DNA from: Nitrospirota bacterium | Lineage (GTDB): Bacteria > Nitrospirota > Nitrospiria > Nitrospirales > Nitrospiraceae | NCBI GenBank assembly: GCA_016219645.1 | Contig: JACRLR010000020.1 | Coordinates: 124,001 to 188,000, forward strand | DNA length: 64,000 bases | Direction: 5' to 3' | In this document: in pieces, positions 43,727 to 52,146 of the stretch | How positions within the stretch are numbered: the first letter of the stretch is position 1 | Layout: each line of letters starts with the position of its first letter | The notes under the pieces: model-generated | What the model was told of the DNA's origin: nothing | What the model saw: only the letters and a program-made list of their open reading frames with translations | The model's database searches: none | Position numbers and translations under genes: made by a program

Positions 43727-45772
43727 TTAGACCGGCAGGATGTCACTAATGGCTGATCGTTCAACACGCCCTATGTTGCTCCATTGCTCTGCCATCGGGA
43801 TCAATGCGTGAACCCTGGTCTCGACCGTTCCCAGTCGCTGCGCCAACGACGAGGTTTTTCTGTAGGCCGAGACCATGAGGAAAGATCGCAGCCCTTGCAA
43901 AAACATCGTGATCATCGTCGCCTGCACACGACTGGCCAGATCGTAGAGGGCCTCGACCTGTTCAAGAACAGGATCGAGTTGCGCGGCCGTCACGAAATCC
44001 GTTGCCCCGCTCGCTCGCAAACTTGCAAGAGTCGAACTGATGATCGGAACCCGCCGACGGACCTCTTGAAGAAATTCTTCGTCGAGTTTGTCAAGTTGAG
44101 TCAAAATACGCTCGACACCGGCAACGTCAAGACGATCGCCTTCCCGCTCAGCTCGCTGGATCACCGCCTCCAGCACATCACGGGCAGGCTGCATCGACCT
44201 GGCGCGAGCCTGCTGGAGAGCCCGAAGGGCCTGTATGAGCGGCACATTGGAACTCACGGCGATGGGAGGCTGCGCATCAATAGATTTAGGGGGTTCCGCG
44301 ATGACGGTAGGAAGAACCTCCTGAGGCTCGCTGACCGTTTTTACTAGGACATCATCGGTTCTAATTCGTCGACCCTCTTGCTCTCCTGCTAAACGATGCA
44401 CAGCCAGACTGATCCGATCCAACCCCTCCTGAAGCGACTGAAGGGCTGCCGTTACCTTACGCGGTTCTTGTTGCTCCACATCGTGGAGAATCGACAGCAG
44501 ATTCGAGGCCATCTGTTCTATCGTCTTGAGCTGCGCCGTCGACGCAGATTTTGCAAGATTCGTAATGCCGTGTAAGAGAATGCCGTAGAGCTTCGGTCGC
44601 ACCGTCCCATTGGCCCCCCCAGCGATCTGTTTCACCGCCATCTGAATTTGAGCCAGCCATTGATGGGCTTCAAGAGCGAATAGACCGATGACCTCCTTTT
44701 CAAAACTGGCATCCGAGAGATCTTGCGCACTCCTCTCTTCAGGTAGAGGAGTCCTGGACTCGACGGCGCCTTGTATTGAGCTTGCAAGAGCGTCCAAGCC
44801 TTCCAAAAGCAGCGTAAACCGATCGGATGCCGTGGGCACAACATCAGCTGCCTTCGCGCGCACCTCCTGTGAGGGAAACGTGACACGCGCAACGTCAGGA
44901 GGCTTAAGTGTTTCGATGATGGACACCAGCGGGGCAAGACGCAGATCGATCTGCCGTTCCTCCTGGCCGGAGACCGCATCGCCTTCGACTAATACCACGG
45001 GGCGGAGCGGATAGCGCATATTGATGCGCATGACCGACCCGACTTCTCCGGTGCTCAACCGCACCAAGGTACCAAGCGGATATGCCGATAGCTGTTGGAC
45101 CAGCGCTTTGACGATTTCACGAGGAAACGCTGTCCGTTCCACAGCCAACAATTCACGCACCGCTTCATGCGGAAAGAATCGGCGGCGGTACCCGCGCGGG
45201 CTCACGAGGGCATCGAAAATATCCACCACGCCGATGATCTGGGCAAACTCGCTGACTTGCCGCCCCTTCAGTTTTTTTGGATAGCCCTGTCCATTCCACC
45301 GTTCATGCGCCTGGCTCACCACCTGAGCCAACCAGTCATATTTCTCACCGGCCTTCTGAATCGTTTGATAGCCGAGTTCAGGATGTCGTTCAATGAGCGC
45401 CCGCTCCTCCATGGTCAACCGACCAGACTTTGTGATCAACGATTGCGGGACGGCAAAGAGCCCAATGTCATGCAGGAGCCCTGCGAAGGTCAGTCGTTCC
45501 AGCTCTTTCCCATGATAGCCCAACCCCGCACCGACCTTGGTCGCCAGAATCCCGACATTCACGAGGTTCGTAATCAGAGGAGGACCTACCAGCCCACTCA
45601 TCGCCTGAACGAGCAATTGGTCATTTTTTTTGACCGCCTCTGCAATCCCTGTGGCTAGGGCAGACAAGGCCTCCATGTTGAGTGGCTCTTGCTGCTGGAC
45701 CGCAAGAGCCACCCCCGTCAGCTGTTCCTGCGCAAGGCGATACCAATCCGTCATACTGGGCTCGCTCACCAC
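43727..45772 (-). CDS. HD-GYP-like protein with degenerate Hpt-like C-terminus
   Basis: A 681-aa soluble protein. Residues ~50-270 form an HD-GYP domain (GLLHDIGLFAVPQSLITKSG, IERHPELGYQTI, QAHERWNGQGYP, VVDIFDALVSPRGYR). Such domains hydrolyse c-di-GMP. Here HDIGK has become HDIGL and HHE has become AHE, so activity is uncertain. Residues ~350-440 resemble an Hpt domain (EVIGLFALEAHQWLAQIQMA then HGITNLAKSAS) lacking the phospho-accepting HxxKGS. The last ~140 residues are paralogous to the end of the protein at 46999-47946. The start is a GTG at 45772 or the next codon. Confidence 0.75.
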   Translation of the reverse strand: MVSEPSMTDWYRLAQEQLTGVALAVQQQEPLNMEALSALATGIAEAVKKNDQLLVQAMSGLVGPPLITNLVNVGILATKVGAGLGYHGKELERLTFAGLLHDIGLFAVPQSLITKSGRLTMEERALIERHPELGYQTIQKAGEKYDWLAQVVSQAHERWNGQGYPKKLKGRQVSEFAQIIGVVDIFDALVSPRGYRRRFFPHEAVRELLAVERTAFPREIVKALVQQLSAYPLGTLVRLSTGEVGSVMRINMRYPLRPVVLVEGDAVSGQEERQIDLRLAPLVSIIETLKPPDVARVTFPSQEVRAKAADVVPTASDRFTLLLEGLDALASSIQGAVESRTPLPEERSAQDLSDASFEKEVIGLFALEAHQWLAQIQMAVKQIAGGANGTVRPKLYGILLHGITNLAKSASTAQLKTIEQMASNLLSILHDVEQQEPRKVTAALQSLQEGLDRISLAVHRLAGEQEGRRIRTDDVLVKTVSEPQEVLPTVIAEPPKSIDAQPPIAVSSNVPLIQALRALQQARARSMQPARDVLEAVIQRAEREGDRLDVAGVERILTQLDKLDEEFLQEVRRRVPIISSTLASLRASGATDFVTAAQLDPVLEQVEALYDLASRVQATMITMFLQGLRSFLMVSAYRKTSSLAQRLGTVETRVHALIPMAEQWSNIGRVERSAISDILPV

Positions 45773-46019
45773 AAACTGTTGCCCCCGCGAAATATTCGTC
45801 CGTCCACCGATGACCTACCAAGCCAACTGAACAAGCAGCTCGGCCATCTGACTCTGTTCGTAGAGACCTGGTAACGTCTCTCTTGTAACCACATTGGCCT
45901 ACCGCTTGGCGATTCTTACCCGTTTCGCACTATACCAGGGTTACGGCATTCCCGTTTCGCTCTGCAGGGGAGAGATTAATATTGTCTCTCGTGCGACGAC
46001 CCACCGATAGGCATCTACT

Positions 46020-46922
46020 TTATTGTCGCCCACTCGCGTACTTTGATATAACTTCACGATATGATCCGATCCCGTTGAGGTCCTTCGCGGCACTCTTCTC
46101 CACGGCCATGGGCGTATTCGTGACCGGCCCGACCCGCTGAACGAGCCGGTCATCGATCTGTGTGACCTGTTCGATAGCTCCGGCAAAGAGACATTGATCA
46201 CAGAGCGTATTAATGACCCTTCCGATCCCCTGGCTCTGCTCAAAAATGCTTGCGATCGCCTCTTTCGTAAATACGTCCGTCCGATCGGTCACCGCCTCCA
46301 TGCGTGCCCCGATATACGCCGTCGTCTCCTCTGCCGTGAACGGGCCCAGATGGGCTCGGACCGCAATCCGCTGGTTCAATTGCGGGATATCCGCAACAAG
46401 GCCACGCAATTCCGGCTGGCCGATCAGCACAACAGTCAAGAGATATCGATCGTTGAGCTGGAAATTCGTCAACAATCGGAGTTCTTCAAATCCGTTAAGG
46501 CTTTCAATCGCTTGCGCCTCATCCACCACCAGCACAGAGCTGACCCCTCGCTGCTCATTGAGTTGCAGACGTTCATTGAGCATCTGTAATCGCGCAGCCT
46601 TTGATTGCACCAGTTCGAGTCCGAACTGAGCTAACACTTCATCCAACAATTCGGAGGGGGACAACGCGGGATTGGCGACGAGCGCGACATCATATTGAGC
46701 AGGCGACAGCCCGACGATCAGTCGACGGCTCAACAACGTTTTCCCACACCCGATATCGCCTGTGAGGAGGAGTATCCCCTTGCGGGCCTGAATCCCGTAA
46801 TTCAGCCATCTGTGTGCCGCATCATGCTGAACGCAGGGGACATAAAATCGCGGGTCCGGCACATTGTCGAACGGAAGGCCCCGCAGCCCCCAGTAGCTCG
46901 TATAGTCATCTTCAAATTTCAT
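46020..46922 (-). CDS. ExeA/GspA-type AAA ATPase
   Basis: A ~300-aa ATPase of the ExeA/GspA type. It opens YWGLRGLPFDNVPDPRFYVP, the family signature. Walker A is TGDIGCGKTLLSRRL and Walker B SVLVVDEAQAI, followed by the LRLLTNFQLNDRYLLTVVLI sensor region and QRIAVRAHLGPFTAEET. In secretion and exopolysaccharide systems such proteins help assemble or regulate envelope complexes. No peptidoglycan-binding domain or membrane helix is present. I chose the ATG at 46922 (MKFEDDYTSYWGL); the longer frame upstream to 47090 overlaps the preceding gene. Confidence 0.82.
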   Translation of the reverse strand: MKFEDDYTSYWGLRGLPFDNVPDPRFYVPCVQHDAAHRWLNYGIQARKGILLLTGDIGCGKTLLSRRLIVGLSPAQYDVALVANPALSPSELLDEVLAQFGLELVQSKAARLQMLNERLQLNEQRGVSSVLVVDEAQAIESLNGFEELRLLTNFQLNDRYLLTVVLIGQPELRGLVADIPQLNQRIAVRAHLGPFTAEETTAYIGARMEAVTDRTDVFTKEAIASIFEQSQGIGRVINTLCDQCLFAGAIEQVTQIDDRLVQRVGPVTNTPMAVEKSAAKDLNGIGSYREVISKYASGRQ

Positions 46923-46998
46923 GGGGCCGGCACCAGTCGGAGGGGACAACTCCACCACAAGCTTGGATGAACATCTGTGCGGAATTCCAATACGACCA

Positions 46999-47946
46999 TT
47001 ACGAATGGCTGACAGGGAGCAACTGACCGATTGCAGCACGCTGGGCCCGCCCATGCTCCACCCATTGTCTGACGGCTTTACCCATTTCATGTAGTCGCGT
47101 CTTCACGGATTCAACCCGCGGGGCAGCCACACGCACTCGACGTTGAGCCGCCACAGTCAGCAGACTCTGCAAACCTGTGAAAAACAACACGGCCGATGCC
47201 GCATTCACCTGCTGCGCCTCTTCGCGAAGACGTGCGACGTCTTGAAGCGAGTCTTCGAGTGCTCCCTTCTGGGAGGAAGCCTCCTCCCCCTCCATCTTGA
47301 GGGCGTTCACTTTCTCGAAGATATCGGGGACTCGCTCGTCAATCGTCTTCAGAAACAACTCTTCCGCTTCAGCCACCCGTGCAAGATATCCATGGATGAC
47401 TGCGACATCGATACGCTCGACTCTGGCCTGCACGTGTTTCTCCATCTCCTCAATCAGATTGCGGATATGATTACGACCTGAGTCAATACCGGAAGACTGG
47501 TTTCTTAGAAGTTCCTGAAGCGCCAGCACAAACTTTTCGGGTGAGAGGCCTGCGGACCCCGCCGCTCCATCCGCACTGCTCCTACCCCCTTCAGAGGAAA
47601 GACTGGTTGCGCGGGTTAACGCAGTCTGGATCTGTCCCAGCTGCCTACAGACTGCAAAGAACTCCTGAACAGAAGACGCCTTCAGGGGATCTTTGAGAAC
47701 TTCTATCAAAGGAAACGCTGCAAGACAGGCATCCATAATGTCGCGCAGATTAATCGTGGCGGCAGACTCACCGAGGTTTGTCACTCCAACCAACATCATG
47801 TCGATCAGTTCTGCATACCGCTCAGGCGCCGGCCCCTGTTCGAGCTCGTCAAGCGCAACATGAAGGTTCTGGAGCCATTCATGGGCTTCCTCAACAAATA
47901 GATCGACCAGTTCTTTCTGAAAATCGTCCGTCGTGCCGGCAGCCAT
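46999..47946 (-). CDS. Degenerate Hpt-like signalling protein
   Basis: A 315-aa soluble helical protein. The start (ELVDLFVEEAHEWLQNLHVA) matches the first helix of CheA-type Hpt domains. The second helix, where HTLKGSA carries the phosphorylated His, reads GVTNLGESAATINL, so the His and Lys are missing. The rest is a helical region with coiled-coil character. Its last ~110 residues (VIHGYLARVAEAEELFLKTI ... LFFTGLQSLLTVAAQRRVRV) are clearly paralogous to the end of the HD-GYP-like protein. It starts 12 bp after the receiver/coiled-coil gene. I know no function for this pair. Confidence 0.65.
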   Translation of the reverse strand: MAAGTTDDFQKELVDLFVEEAHEWLQNLHVALDELEQGPAPERYAELIDMMLVGVTNLGESAATINLRDIMDACLAAFPLIEVLKDPLKASSVQEFFAVCRQLGQIQTALTRATSLSSEGGRSSADGAAGSAGLSPEKFVLALQELLRNQSSGIDSGRNHIRNLIEEMEKHVQARVERIDVAVIHGYLARVAEAEELFLKTIDERVPDIFEKVNALKMEGEEASSQKGALEDSLQDVARLREEAQQVNAASAVLFFTGLQSLLTVAAQRRVRVAAPRVESVKTRLHEMGKAVRQWVEHGRAQRAAIGQLLPVSHS

Positions 47947-47958
47947 GACATCAGTCCT

Positions 47959-49161
47959 TCATGACAAGGGTTGTCTCTTTCCACTCCCCAGCTGAGAAGC
48001 CCATCCTGCGATCTCGCCAAGCTTGGCCGCCACCTCTTCAAATCGCTTGGTGGCAAGCCCGGACGCCTGTTCAGCTTCAAATACGCGCCTCGCCAAGAGG
48101 CTATTGCGTTCCCGTTCCGCGAGAAGGAGCGTTTCAATTTCCTGGACTTTCTGCGAGGCACGCTGGGCCTCGGTGAGACGAACGTTAAGATCCTTATTTC
48201 TTTCCTGTTCAGCAGCGAGACCTTGTGACAATTCCTGAGTCCTGGCAACCTCGCCTTCCAGCTCAGTCATGTGCTGCGCCAATTGCAAACCTGTCTGCCG
48301 CTCGGTATACAGAGCAGCCTCCAGCTCAGGAACACGATTCACATTCATCTGCAGGTCGGCCAGACGCGTCGCCTGTTGCACTGCACTTTCGCGTTCTTTC
48401 TGAAGGGCTGCCTCCAGTTCCCACACCCGCCTGCCCAGGGCTTCCGCTGTGGATGCTTGATTCTTGGCCTCGATCGTCCGCTCTCGTTCGATCTGGATGA
48501 GGGATTCAAGTTCCGCAAGTTTCTTTTTGAGCTCCGCAACCTGCTCTCGCTCCAAGGCCGCCATCGACTCAAGTTCCTTGACACGAGCTACCGGTCCTTC
48601 GAGTGGTATGACCCGCTGAGTACCCTCTGTCGCTTGATCTCTTTCAAGCCGGGGTTCTCCCTCCAATGGACTCAGCCGCGGGATTGTCTGTCGGTAGGCG
48701 TCCGTCTGCTCATCGCTTACACGCGACCGTTGAAAGAGCTCGATGGACTTGACCGCTTTGTCCAGGTTCGTCGGCTTGGGCACAGCCGTACCTTGACGCT
48801 TTGCCAACAACTCGAGCGCGCGATCCTTGAGAGCCGTGCCCTGAAACGGCTTTTTCAAAACCCCATCCGCATGACAGGATTCAGCCTGCTTCGTCACCTC
48901 GTCATTGACAATGCCGGAGATCAAGAGCACCGGCGTGTTCGCGAGCGTGCTCTGTGCACGCACAAACGCGCAGACCTCATAGCCGCTTTTATCCGGCATG
49001 ATCACGTCGGTCACGACTAAATCAGGCGTCTCTTTGGCCAGATAGGCCAAGGCCTCCTCGCCGTTCGCTGCTAGCGTGACTCCGAATCCTGCCTCAGTCA
49101 GCAACCGTTCGGCAACCTTCCGGACTGCAATACTGTCGTCGGCAATCAAGACATTTGGCAT
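47959..49161 (-). CDS. Response regulator with long C-terminal coiled coil
   Basis: A 400-aa protein. Residues 1-120 are a receiver domain with the acidic pair (VLIADDSIAV), the phospho-accepting Asp in LVVTDVIMPDKSGYEVC, a conserved Ser (LLISG) and Lys (VLKKPF). Residues ~180-385 are a nearly continuous coiled coil (EREQVAELKKKLAELESLIQ and similar) with no DNA-binding or enzymatic domain. Output is therefore through protein contact. First gene of a minus-strand series with the Hpt-like protein, the ATPase and the HD-GYP-like protein. No histidine kinase is encoded nearby. Confidence 0.85.
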   Translation of the reverse strand: MPNVLIADDSIAVRKVAERLLTEAGFGVTLAANGEEALAYLAKETPDLVVTDVIMPDKSGYEVCAFVRAQSTLANTPVLLISGIVNDEVTKQAESCHADGVLKKPFQGTALKDRALELLAKRQGTAVPKPTNLDKAVKSIELFQRSRVSDEQTDAYRQTIPRLSPLEGEPRLERDQATEGTQRVIPLEGPVARVKELESMAALEREQVAELKKKLAELESLIQIERERTIEAKNQASTAEALGRRVWELEAALQKERESAVQQATRLADLQMNVNRVPELEAALYTERQTGLQLAQHMTELEGEVARTQELSQGLAAEQERNKDLNVRLTEAQRASQKVQEIETLLLAERERNSLLARRVFEAEQASGLATKRFEEVAAKLGEIAGWASQLGSGKRQPLS

Positions 49162-49713
49162 AGCAAATTCCTTCCCCCAGCGCCCTTAACGACTGACGGC
49201 ATCCTGTCTCGATTGCCCAAGCCGTTGTAAGGCTATGATATCCTCACCTTCTCCACCTGCTGTGATCGTACCCGGTATTTTGGCAGCCTCTTTACCGAGG
49301 GATGCGACCCCATGGCTCACCCCCTTGTGGCAACCTTCGATCAGCTGAAGCTCTGCATAGGTATTCCTCTTCGCCTCAGATCTCCATCATGTCGCGAAGC
49401 ATTTCCATGGCTCTGTCGTTGCGCGAATTTGAGTGTAGCCATTCATTCGCTATTAGCAAGCAAATCAACAATTTCGACAACTCTTTCTCTCTTTACGCCA
49501 CGGACGCTTGGGGCTCGCGAGCAGGGTATCATCAACCAGGAGACACAACGCCCCTGCATACCTCCGGTACAAATACTTGAAGAGAGGACCTATGAAACCC
49601 AGGTGGGGGGTGGGTGCTGCAGAGATTGACTGCTCAAAGGGAACGGGATATCCGAGACTCGCGGCATTCCTTGGAACACCGGCAACATAAAGAAACTTTG
49701 AAGGAGAAACCCT
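49162..49713. other. Intergenic stretch upstream of the receiver gene
   Basis: About 550 bp with only short frames that lack family features or ribosome sites. It must contain the promoter of the minus-strand signalling group, but I could not identify one with confidence. A weak GCTATGATATCCTC segment (49232-49245) is the only AT-rich spot near the gene. Confidence 0.35.
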
Positions 49714-49843: not shown

Positions 49844-51391
49844 CTACAGGGGACTTCTTCGACCTTCACATGCAGGATAGATCAAATCCATGCTCAGATA
49901 TTTTTCAAGATGATCAGCCCAGCGATCCAGTTCAGCGCCCAATTGCGTTGTGACCAGTTCAGACTCATGGAGTGAAATAGGTGAAAGTCCCTTCCGGCCG
50001 CGCACACGGTTCAGCCAACTCCTGCGGAACTCTGCCTGATCGAATAAACCATGGATGCTGGTACCCCAGACACGACCATTCTCACTTGCCGCGCCTTCGT
50101 CACCCGTTGCGTCGCCTTCTCGAATTTCAGATGCTTCGGTCTGAAAACAGGGGTTGGCAGTTCCACGACTCGTATGTCCCATGTGGATTTCATAACCTCG
50201 GACCGGCACATCCTGTTCCATATTGTGAAGCAGCGACCTGGCCCGGACTTGTCGGCAGATCTTTGGCGCATCGAGCTCCGTCACCACGTCAAGAAACCCT
50301 AACCCTCTTGACGTTCCTCCACCCTCTAAACCCTTGGGATCAGCGACCTCTTGCCCAAGCATCTGGTACCCCCCGCAGATCCCGACTAGCTCACCTCCTC
50401 TCTCCATGTGCAATTGTAAGGCAGACGGGAATCCAGCGGACACAAGATACTCGAGATCTTCGAGCGTGTTCTTGCTCCCAGGAAGGATCACCACGTCGGC
50501 TCCGCTGAGATCATCCCGGGAAGCAGCAAACCGGAGCGCCACATCCTTCTCAGCCGACAACGCATTAAAGTCGGTGAAATTGCTCATGCGAGGGAGCAAG
50601 ACTACGACTACATTTGTGAGATCAGGCTTAAACTGAACCGCTCGTGAATGAGTCAGATCCAGGCTATCCTCTTGATCTAATAGAAGATCGCGCAAATAAG
50701 GAACGACTCCCAAGACTGGCAAACCTGTACGTGCCTCAAGGATACGGACACCGTCTTCAAACAGTCGGCGATCTCCGCGGAACTTATTCACGATCACACC
50801 GCGCACATGGTGGCGTTCATGAGGTGCCAATAAGTCAAGCGTTCCGATGATCTGCGCGAAGACTCCGCCTCGATCGATATCCGCTACCAACAGGACTGAT
50901 GCGTCGGCCAACTTGACAACCGGCCAATTTACGATGTCCCGGTCCCGGAGATTGATCTCCGCAGCACTCCCTGCCCCCTCGATGACGACGCACTCGTACT
51001 CGCCCGCCAATCGCGAATAACATTCTCGAACAATGTTGAACAGCGTCTCCTTTCTCTCAAAGTATGCAAGCGCATCCAAGCCATCGTAGACTTTTCCTTT
51101 CACCACCACCTGTGATCGTGAATCGGACTCGGGCTTTAACAGAATCGGATTCATGTCCACCGTCGGCTCGATCCCACAGGCCTGAGCCTGCAACGCTTGC
51201 GCTCTGCCGATCTCCCCGCCATCGAGCGTGGCGAAAGAATTCAGTGCCATGTTCTGCGCTTTGAATGGTGCAACCCGCAGGCCCTTTCTGAAGAGAAGCC
51301 GGCAGAGCCCGACAACGATGAGGCTTTTCCCCACATCGGAGCCAGTTCCAAGCACGGCAAGAGCGTTAGTTCGGGCTCTATCAACCATCAT
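49844..51391 (-). CDS. cobQ: Cobyric acid synthase
   Basis: Amidates the b, d, e and g side chains of adenosylcobyrinate a,c-diamide, using glutamine and ATP. The ~515-aa protein starts LAVLGTGSDVGKSLIVVGLC (P-loop) and has PFKAQNMALNSF. The class I glutamine amidotransferase domain has the catalytic Cys in GGELVGICGGYQMLG and His in VWGTSIHGLFD. The ATG at 51391 overlaps the cbiZ stop (ATGA), giving coupled translation; the frame's upstream codons to 51433 lie within cbiZ. Last gene of the cobalamin run. Confidence 0.95.
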   Translation of the reverse strand: MMVDRARTNALAVLGTGSDVGKSLIVVGLCRLLFRKGLRVAPFKAQNMALNSFATLDGGEIGRAQALQAQACGIEPTVDMNPILLKPESDSRSQVVVKGKVYDGLDALAYFERKETLFNIVRECYSRLAGEYECVVIEGAGSAAEINLRDRDIVNWPVVKLADASVLLVADIDRGGVFAQIIGTLDLLAPHERHHVRGVIVNKFRGDRRLFEDGVRILEARTGLPVLGVVPYLRDLLLDQEDSLDLTHSRAVQFKPDLTNVVVVLLPRMSNFTDFNALSAEKDVALRFAASRDDLSGADVVILPGSKNTLEDLEYLVSAGFPSALQLHMERGGELVGICGGYQMLGQEVADPKGLEGGGTSRGLGFLDVVTELDAPKICRQVRARSLLHNMEQDVPVRGYEIHMGHTSRGTANPCFQTEASEIREGDATGDEGAASENGRVWGTSIHGLFDQAEFRRSWLNRVRGRKGLSPISLHESELVTTQLGAELDRWADHLEKYLSMDLIYPACEGRRSPL

Positions 51392-52146
51392 AGACCTCTC
51401 ATGCGGCGAGATGAGGTACTGCGGGCATGCCAACGTTTGTACCGAGCCAGCCCTTCTGTAACGGCGGTCTCAATCACTTGTCCGACAAGTTCACCGAGAA
51501 TCGTATGGGTACCGCTGTATCGCTGAGAAGGTCCCTCTCCACTCACCACCACTACCGCATCTGTTCCCGTTCCCGTCGCCCCCGAGCGGCCAGTCCAACT
51601 CTTCACCTTGGCCTGTAACAGGGCAGCCGTCTTGGCTTCGGTCGCAACCTGCACCATCCCGACCATTGCCGAAGCGGATAGGCGCGCATTGGTCACAAGA
51701 ATCACGTTGATCGTGCCGGGATGAGCCCGCCCGTTGGTGAGCGAACTCGATGTTGCCGATTCCCCTGCCCGCACGGCATTGGCTGTTCCGACTGTCACAA
51801 ATCCTTCAACCCATATGTGATCCGAGGCAGCTCGGATGGCAACCAACTCTGCGAGCGACACGGCTGTCATGAGACCGACGAATTTCTCTCGTATACCAAG
51901 GGAGGAGGCCAGCTTGCCCAATGTTCTGGAAGGATCGGCGCATCTCGCAAATGCACCCGCACCACAAGCATCCCTACTAATTGGGTTGTTCGCCACTTGA
52001 TGGTTCAAGATATACCTGGCCCGCGTGATCCCCCCGGCCCTGGGAGCAGAGGAGAGAACGGACCGGAGATTCCCCAGATCGACGATGAGCGTTTTTTGTC
52101 TGACACTGAAGGCGGTCTGCATCGCAGGCTTAGTAAACAGCTTCAT
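51388..52146 (-). CDS. cbiZ: Adenosylcobinamide amidohydrolase
   Basis: Removes the aminopropanol side chain from salvaged (pseudo)cobamides to give adenosylcobyrate, allowing remodelling. The 252-aa protein has the CbiZ features GTINVILVTNARLSASAMVG, MVQVATEAKTAALL and SGATGTGTDAVVVVSGEG. It overlaps cobQ by 4 bp and follows cobD by 2 bp. Its presence with btuB suggests the cell both makes and salvages corrinoids. Confidence 0.9.
   Translation of the reverse strand: MKLFTKPAMQTAFSVRQKTLIVDLGNLRSVLSSAPRAGGITRARYILNHQVANNPISRDACGAGAFARCADPSRTLGKLASSLGIREKFVGLMTAVSLAELVAIRAASDHIWVEGFVTVGTANAVRAGESATSSSLTNGRAHPGTINVILVTNARLSASAMVGMVQVATEAKTAALLQAKVKSWTGRSGATGTGTDAVVVVSGEGPSQRYSGTHTILGELVGQVIETAVTEGLARYKRWHARSTSSRRMRGL

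Follow-up and report, generated by a model that had tools for sequence, protein, structure and literature searches.

FimL of Pseudomonas aeruginosa carries two Hpt-like domains with glutamine at both phosphorylation sites and is related to the N terminus of the hybrid CheA ChpA (PMC3019171); together with ChpA, it recruits the receiver PilG to the cell poles (PMC10519157). About 93% of CheA proteins with several Hpt domains fall into the Tfp and ACF classes, and what histidine-less Hpt domains do has been called unsettled (PMC10782961). Research on type IV pilus chemosensing has yet to settle the role of such domains in FimL and at several positions of ChpA. Here, we analyze four genes in a 64,000-nucleotide stretch of a Nitrospirota genome (assembly GCA_016219645.1, contig JACRLR010000020.1, positions 124,001–188,000; “the window”) and find that they form the 3′ end of a chemosensory operon that has lost its kinase core by deletion, that two of them encode double pseudo-Hpt regions, and that they have been retained by purifying selection. 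We call the genes RRcc, P2, ATPase, and HDp, the window genome G000, and its closest sequenced relative G030. An earlier reading of the same DNA, referred to below as the original prediction, had described four co-oriented genes, and all four are present on the minus strand as described, with the following layout in window coordinates.

47959–49161, minus strand: RRcc, receiver with coiled coil, 400 amino acids (Pfam, residue tallies, conservation blocks)
46999–47946, minus strand: P2, double pseudo-Hpt protein of FimL-like architecture, 315 amino acids (profiles, fold, residue counts)
47593–47937, minus strand: first pseudo-Hpt domain of P2, residues 4–118, with Thr56 instead of the phospho-histidine (hhalign, CheA P1 match, VIA)
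47020–47406, minus strand: putative second pseudo-Hpt domain of P2, residues 181–309, with Ala238 at the histidine position (predicted bundle, VIA, hidden Markov model [HMM])
About 46020–46922, minus strand: ATPase, an ExeA/MshM-type AAA ATPase taken as ∼300 amino acids (Pfam, NCBIfam); the open reading frame as called is 356 amino acids and overlaps P2
43727–45772, minus strand: HDp, degenerate HD-GYP, small β domain, and double pseudo-Hpt region, 681 amino acids
45143–45568, minus strand: HD-GYP domain of HDp, residues 69–210 (residue tallies)
44390–44713, minus strand: first pseudo-Hpt domain of HDp, residues 354–461, with ITNLAKS (homology to P2, residue counts)
43745–44107, minus strand: putative second pseudo-Hpt domain of HDp, residues about 556–676, with E607 at the histidine position (homology to P2, residue counts)

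The same gene order is found in about 60 other Nitrospirota loci. There the intact operon reads CheY-CheW-MCP-CheA-CheW-CheW-RRcc-P2-(ATPase)-HDp, and the four genes form its 3′ end. A scan of GTDB genomes gave 66 loci, nearly all of which, once those cut by contig ends are set aside, are in operon order, that of N. moscoviensis included. All are from Nitrospirota except two records titled Omnitrophota and Nitrosospira, which are probably misnamed bins. The genes therefore belong together, as had been proposed, given an order conserved in dozens of Nitrospirota and a three-domain fusion in one of them (see below). They are not, however, a free-standing module in origin but the tail of a chemosensory operon. 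Literature searches returned no description of this Nitrospirota tail.

The CheA encoded in the intact operons has three Hpt matches, H-kinase_dim, HATPase_c, CheW, and a C-terminal receiver, and a domain search of it gave no match to a P2/CheY-binding domain. This is the domain composition of the Tfp/ACF type, with at least two Hpt domains, a C-terminal receiver, and no P2/CheY-binding domain. The operon MCP is a membrane protein with 4HB and HAMP domains. The Pil-Chp system (PilG/H/I/J, ChpA, ChpC) shares the CheY-CheW-MCP-hybrid CheA order, the several Hpt domains, the C-terminal receiver, an extra CheW, and a CheA without the P2/CheY-binding domain. In contrast to Pil-Chp, no CheR or CheB genes are seen in the Nitrospirota operon, its MCP has 4HB rather than a PilJ domain, and it ends in a tail that includes the RRcc, ATPase, and HD-GYP genes. 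On this comparison, the four genes are fairly probably the output or scaffold end of a Pil-Chp-like (Tfp/ACF-type) operon.

Whereas the core genes MCP, CheA, CheW, and CheY stand beside the tail in about 60 relatives, they have been deleted from the window genome. Among 61 related genomes, 37 carry the operon CheA, always together with the module (37/37), 22 have neither, and only G000 and G030 have the module without that CheA; a canonical CheA and a distant MCP are all that remains in these two. The edges of the deletion are still recognizable upstream of RRcc.

49162–49272, minus strand: 3′-end remnant of CheW3 (codons 128–147) with the spacer between it and RRcc, 3′ side of the scar (blastn)
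49297–49365, minus strand: CheY remnant, codons 9–31, 5′ side of the scar (tblastn, blastn)
49844–51433, minus strand: CbiP-type cobyric acid synthase, context only; ancestral upstream neighbor of CheY in relatives

The CheY fragment (49365–49297) is detected by tblastn (E = 4e-7) and by blastn over 40 bp at 87.5% (E = 8e-9), and the CheW3 end with its spacer (49258–49162) by blastn over 97 bp at 74% DNA identity (E = 1.6e-11); the G030 counterpart of the latter extends over 128 bp at 76.6% (E = 8e-21). In both G000 and G030 (locus L067), the CheY and then the CheW3 fragment are joined upstream of RRcc in the old operon order, and the scar is thus present in two independent assemblies. Upstream of it lies CbiP, also the neighbor of CheY in many intact relatives. 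Because the ordered fragments are shared and CbiP lies upstream as in relatives, we conclude that a single internal deletion from CheY to CheW3, of about 7.1 kb as measured on the intact operon L115, took place in the common ancestor of G000 and G030.

Since the scar is common to both genomes, all divergence between them postdates the deletion. The window has all four open reading frames intact; G030 has three, and its HDp, split over two contigs, is open up to the contig cut. At a silent divergence of 0.39–0.53, the ratio of nonsynonymous to synonymous substitution rates (dN/dS) between the two genomes is 0.18 for RRcc, 0.22 for P2, 0.20 for ATPase, and 0.16 for HDp excluding its 5′ end (range 0.155–0.224), compared with 0.03–0.22 for intact-operon pairs at similar silent divergence. 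The tail has therefore been retained by purifying selection, perhaps slightly relaxed, and must be useful without its own kinase. Were the genes instead a decaying relic, useless since the loss of the core and on the way to becoming pseudogenes, the absence of the kinase core would be expected, as would the P2 and ATPase ratios at the high end of the range and the replacement of P2 residue 60 (about 47769–47767), the glycine of TNLGGS, by glutamate in the two core-less genomes only. However, the reading frames have stayed open through this silent divergence, the ratios are well under 1 and near those of intact pairs, and the RRcc receiver has kept its entire active site, which makes a relic quite unlikely.

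Homology to the C-terminal third of HDp extends over all of P2 (26%–30% identity, up to E = 1.7e-27 in relatives). The motifs VTNLGES of P2 and ITNLAKS of HDp are located at the Hpt phosphorylation site, as the original prediction had recognized. In both proteins the first domain has the Hpt fold and profile and lacks the phospho-accepting histidine of HxxKGS, which is replaced by threonine in 66 of 67 P2 and 24 of 25 HDp homologs within an almost invariant TNLxxSA. The first half of P2 matches the P1 domain of T. maritima CheA in the PDB (E = 2.9e-6, threonine aligned at the histidine), the Hpt domains of CheAs of its own operon type (hhalign, 95%–96%), and the fold of 1tqg (VIA Z 13.9). Pfam Hpt was matched in 46 of 50 P2 family members; searched alone, the window P2 gave no Hpt match in Pfam or NCBIfam, whereas family members and profiles did.

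The helical region that follows had been described as shared by P2 and HDp and as unassignable to a family. It is indeed shared, but both HMM and fold assign it as a second degenerate Hpt domain. The second half of P2 is predicted to be a four-helix bundle (residues 181–214, 223–246, 250–269, and 275–309) with a helix pattern equal to that of the first half (4–36, 41–64, 68–85, and 93–118), and it matches the CheA Hpt domain 2ld6 (VIA Z 11.0, 105 residues, root-mean-square deviation 2.2). Searched with an Hpt HMM, the second half of basal members reaches as much as 25.7 bits in a collinear, full-length alignment; shuffled and reversed sequences give at most 10.0 and 14.4 bits, respectively. 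The histidine position is mostly alanine in P2, with histidine in two basal members, and is Glu or Asp in 19 of 20 HDp homologs (E607 in the window), where the acidic side chain possibly mimics a constantly charged state. A comparison of the second half with CheA Hpt domains by hhalign gave nothing (probability below 1%), and a Foldseek search with the P2 model returned no match at E below 0.001, its list being dominated by generic helical bundles and G-protein-coupled receptor fusions. Besides HMM and fold, the assignment is supported by the weak hhalign match between the two halves of P2 (p = 0.0075). Because four-helix bundles are common and match readily, which weakens the call, we identify this region as a second, more decayed Hpt domain with moderate confidence. 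With two degenerate Hpt halves, P2 is a double pseudo-Hpt protein, as is the C terminus of HDp.

Like FimL, P2 is cytosolic and stands alone, has two Hpt-like domains, neither with a phospho-histidine, and is found alongside a receiver protein and a hybrid CheA with multiple Hpt domains. Unlike FimL, which has glutamine at both sites, P2 has threonine at the first and alanine at the second, is encoded within the chemosensory operon, and has a second copy fused to an HD-GYP domain. A further property of FimL is that it binds a PilG-type receiver and the polar hub FimV. Going by the shared architecture, P2 may work like FimL; we do not claim it as a FimL.

The receiver of RRcc (Pfam Response_reg, E = 5.6e-23, residues 4–114) has every residue expected of an active receiver (DD, D, T/S, and K), and D8, D9, D52, S82, and K103/K104 are kept in 63–64 of 65 homologs. 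The ∼280 residues beyond it are predicted to form a coiled coil, so the original description of this protein, intact phosphorylation residues with a coiled-coil output, holds. Conservation per block is 0.8–0.9 in the receiver and 0.4–0.6 in the coiled coil; the last 40 residues are conserved again, with the C-terminal end KRFEExAxKLGEIAGxASQLG. FrzS of Myxococcus xanthus likewise has a long coiled coil after its receiver, but that receiver is a pseudo-receiver, whereas RRcc keeps all its phosphorylation residues.

This conservation would also suit a rewiring of the tail to the flagellar-type CheA that remains, in which RRcc would act as an extra CheY and P2 and HDp as a buffer. G000 and G030 do each retain one canonical CheA and an MCP. 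However, the tail is physically unlinked to that CheA cluster, and we regard rewiring as rather doubtful. Separately, in Nitrospira RSF1 (L085:7400–9946), a putative OLD-like ATPase, other genes, and a masked stretch are located within or ahead of RRcc, and the inserted genes part the coiled coil from the receiver. The same locus was considered as a second core-less case and rejected, as its genome keeps the CheA.

HDp has the fold and the GYP motif of HD-GYP phosphodiesterases (PmGH, 4MCW; PA4781, 4R8Z; degenerate Bd1817, 3TM8), matching 4MCW with E = 2e-20. In contrast to these, the HDp family has lost three signature residues throughout. Two of the losses had been noticed before, namely the lysine of HDIGK (HDIGL in the window, Leu105; Leu, Ile, or Val in 56/56 homologs) and the first histidine of HHE (AHE, Ala155; Ala or Val in 56/56); the third is the first metal-ligand histidine, in the first helix, which is Asn69 in 56/56. 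HDp thus lacks part of the metal-ligand set and the intact HDIGK motif expected of a catalytic HD-GYP phosphodiesterase. HD, H130, H156, GYP, and D184 are nevertheless invariant in the same 56 homologs, and the ligand pocket therefore appears to be under selection. With the pocket invariant and two ligands and the lysine gone, the natural reading is that HDp probably binds cyclic di-GMP (c-di-GMP) without hydrolyzing it efficiently. The invariant pocket might also mean that HDp still cleaves c-di-GMP, using a modified metal site, and is the true output, with P2 and RRcc serving only to localize it; the loss of two metal ligands (now Asn69 and Ala/Val155), together with the lysine, in every homolog makes this unlikely.

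The ATPase, with its Walker motifs intact, shares an AAA ATPase core with TIGR03015 and ExeA/GspA. TIGR03015, the XrtA/PEP-CTERM-associated ATPase, is its nearest model and gives the one point in favor of the proposal, made in the original prediction, that an ExeA-type ATPase drives an envelope machine for secretion or polysaccharide export and the other proteins regulate it. The score is 211.7 bits, however, below the cut-off of 324.5, and Pfam found AAA_22 only, with no peptidoglycan-binding domain, so that the region characteristic of ExeA is absent. The ATPase is also the variable part of the tail, present in 39 of 67 loci and missing from many homologous operons; at L116 (5588–5866) a decayed remnant lies ahead of HDp, the ATPase having been lost and HDp kept. 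The constant partners are chemosensory genes. We found nothing that points to secretion or export and consider such a role very unlikely.

One genome encodes ATPase, HD-GYP, and double pseudo-Hpt in a single open frame of 1027 amino acids (L118:7940–11023, VBOJ01000014.1). This fusion is the best sign that the three act in one complex and a direct physical hint of what pseudo-Hpt domains connect. L116 was considered as a second ATPase-HDp fusion and rejected, the ATPase there being only a remnant.

Considered together, the four genes most likely encode a FimL-like scaffold or output complex of a Pil-Chp-type system, which would act on type IV pili and has been kept without its kinase in the window lineage. 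In intact operons, the membrane MCP and three CheWs would control the hybrid CheA, with its three Hpt domains and C-terminal receiver, and the CheA would phosphorylate CheY and the RRcc receiver. P2 and the C-terminal half of HDp, unable to take up phosphate on the usual histidine, may bind these receivers, much as FimL might, using the Hpt-receiver interface but transferring no phosphate, and hold them at one cell location. HDp would bring its degenerate HD-GYP domain into the assembly, with c-di-GMP bound rather than efficiently cleaved, and in many genomes the AAA ATPase would join and couple ATP use to it. Signal state and c-di-GMP level would then be passed to the type IV pilus machinery. 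In the window lineage, the tail would act with no kinase of its own, whether independently of phosphate or with phosphate supplied by the CheA that remains. The original prediction had called the assembly non-phosphorelay and based on protein contact. An output by protein contact is plausible; “non-phosphorelay” does not fit the system generally, because the operon kinase has several histidine-bearing Hpt domains and the core was lost only in the window lineage.

Operon type and co-occurrence make type IV pili probably a better guess than secretion or export: PilT and PilQ are found in G000, G030, and nearly all carriers, with matches missing only in fragmentary genomes. Besides the inconstant ATPase, the possible relaxation of P2 and ATPase, and the ease with which four-helix bundles match, several observations weigh against our interpretation. 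No pilus genes are adjacent to the operon, and three genomes (G001, G003, and G010) have PilT and PilQ and lack both chemosensory operon and tail. The two halves of P2 align weakly by hhalign (p = 0.0075), and the structure model of HDp is too poor for use (mean predicted local distance difference test score 62).

A stronger version is possible, if somewhat on the doubtful side: in the window lineage, receiver, double pseudo-Hpt scaffold, ATPase, and pseudo-HD-GYP would have survived the loss of their kinase as a free-standing assembly that needs no phosphate and responds to c-di-GMP. If true, FimL and other pseudo-Hpt scaffolds can function in their own right. The window lineage amounts to a natural knockout that lacks the kinase core and retains the scaffold, so that phosphate-dependent and phosphate-independent roles become separable. 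Across the phylum, the family presents the pseudo-Hpt as a conserved, separate output protein that has been duplicated onto a degenerate HD-GYP domain. In a neighboring family the tail is simpler: ATPase and HD-GYP are absent, and it consists of RRcc and a single double pseudo-Hpt protein.

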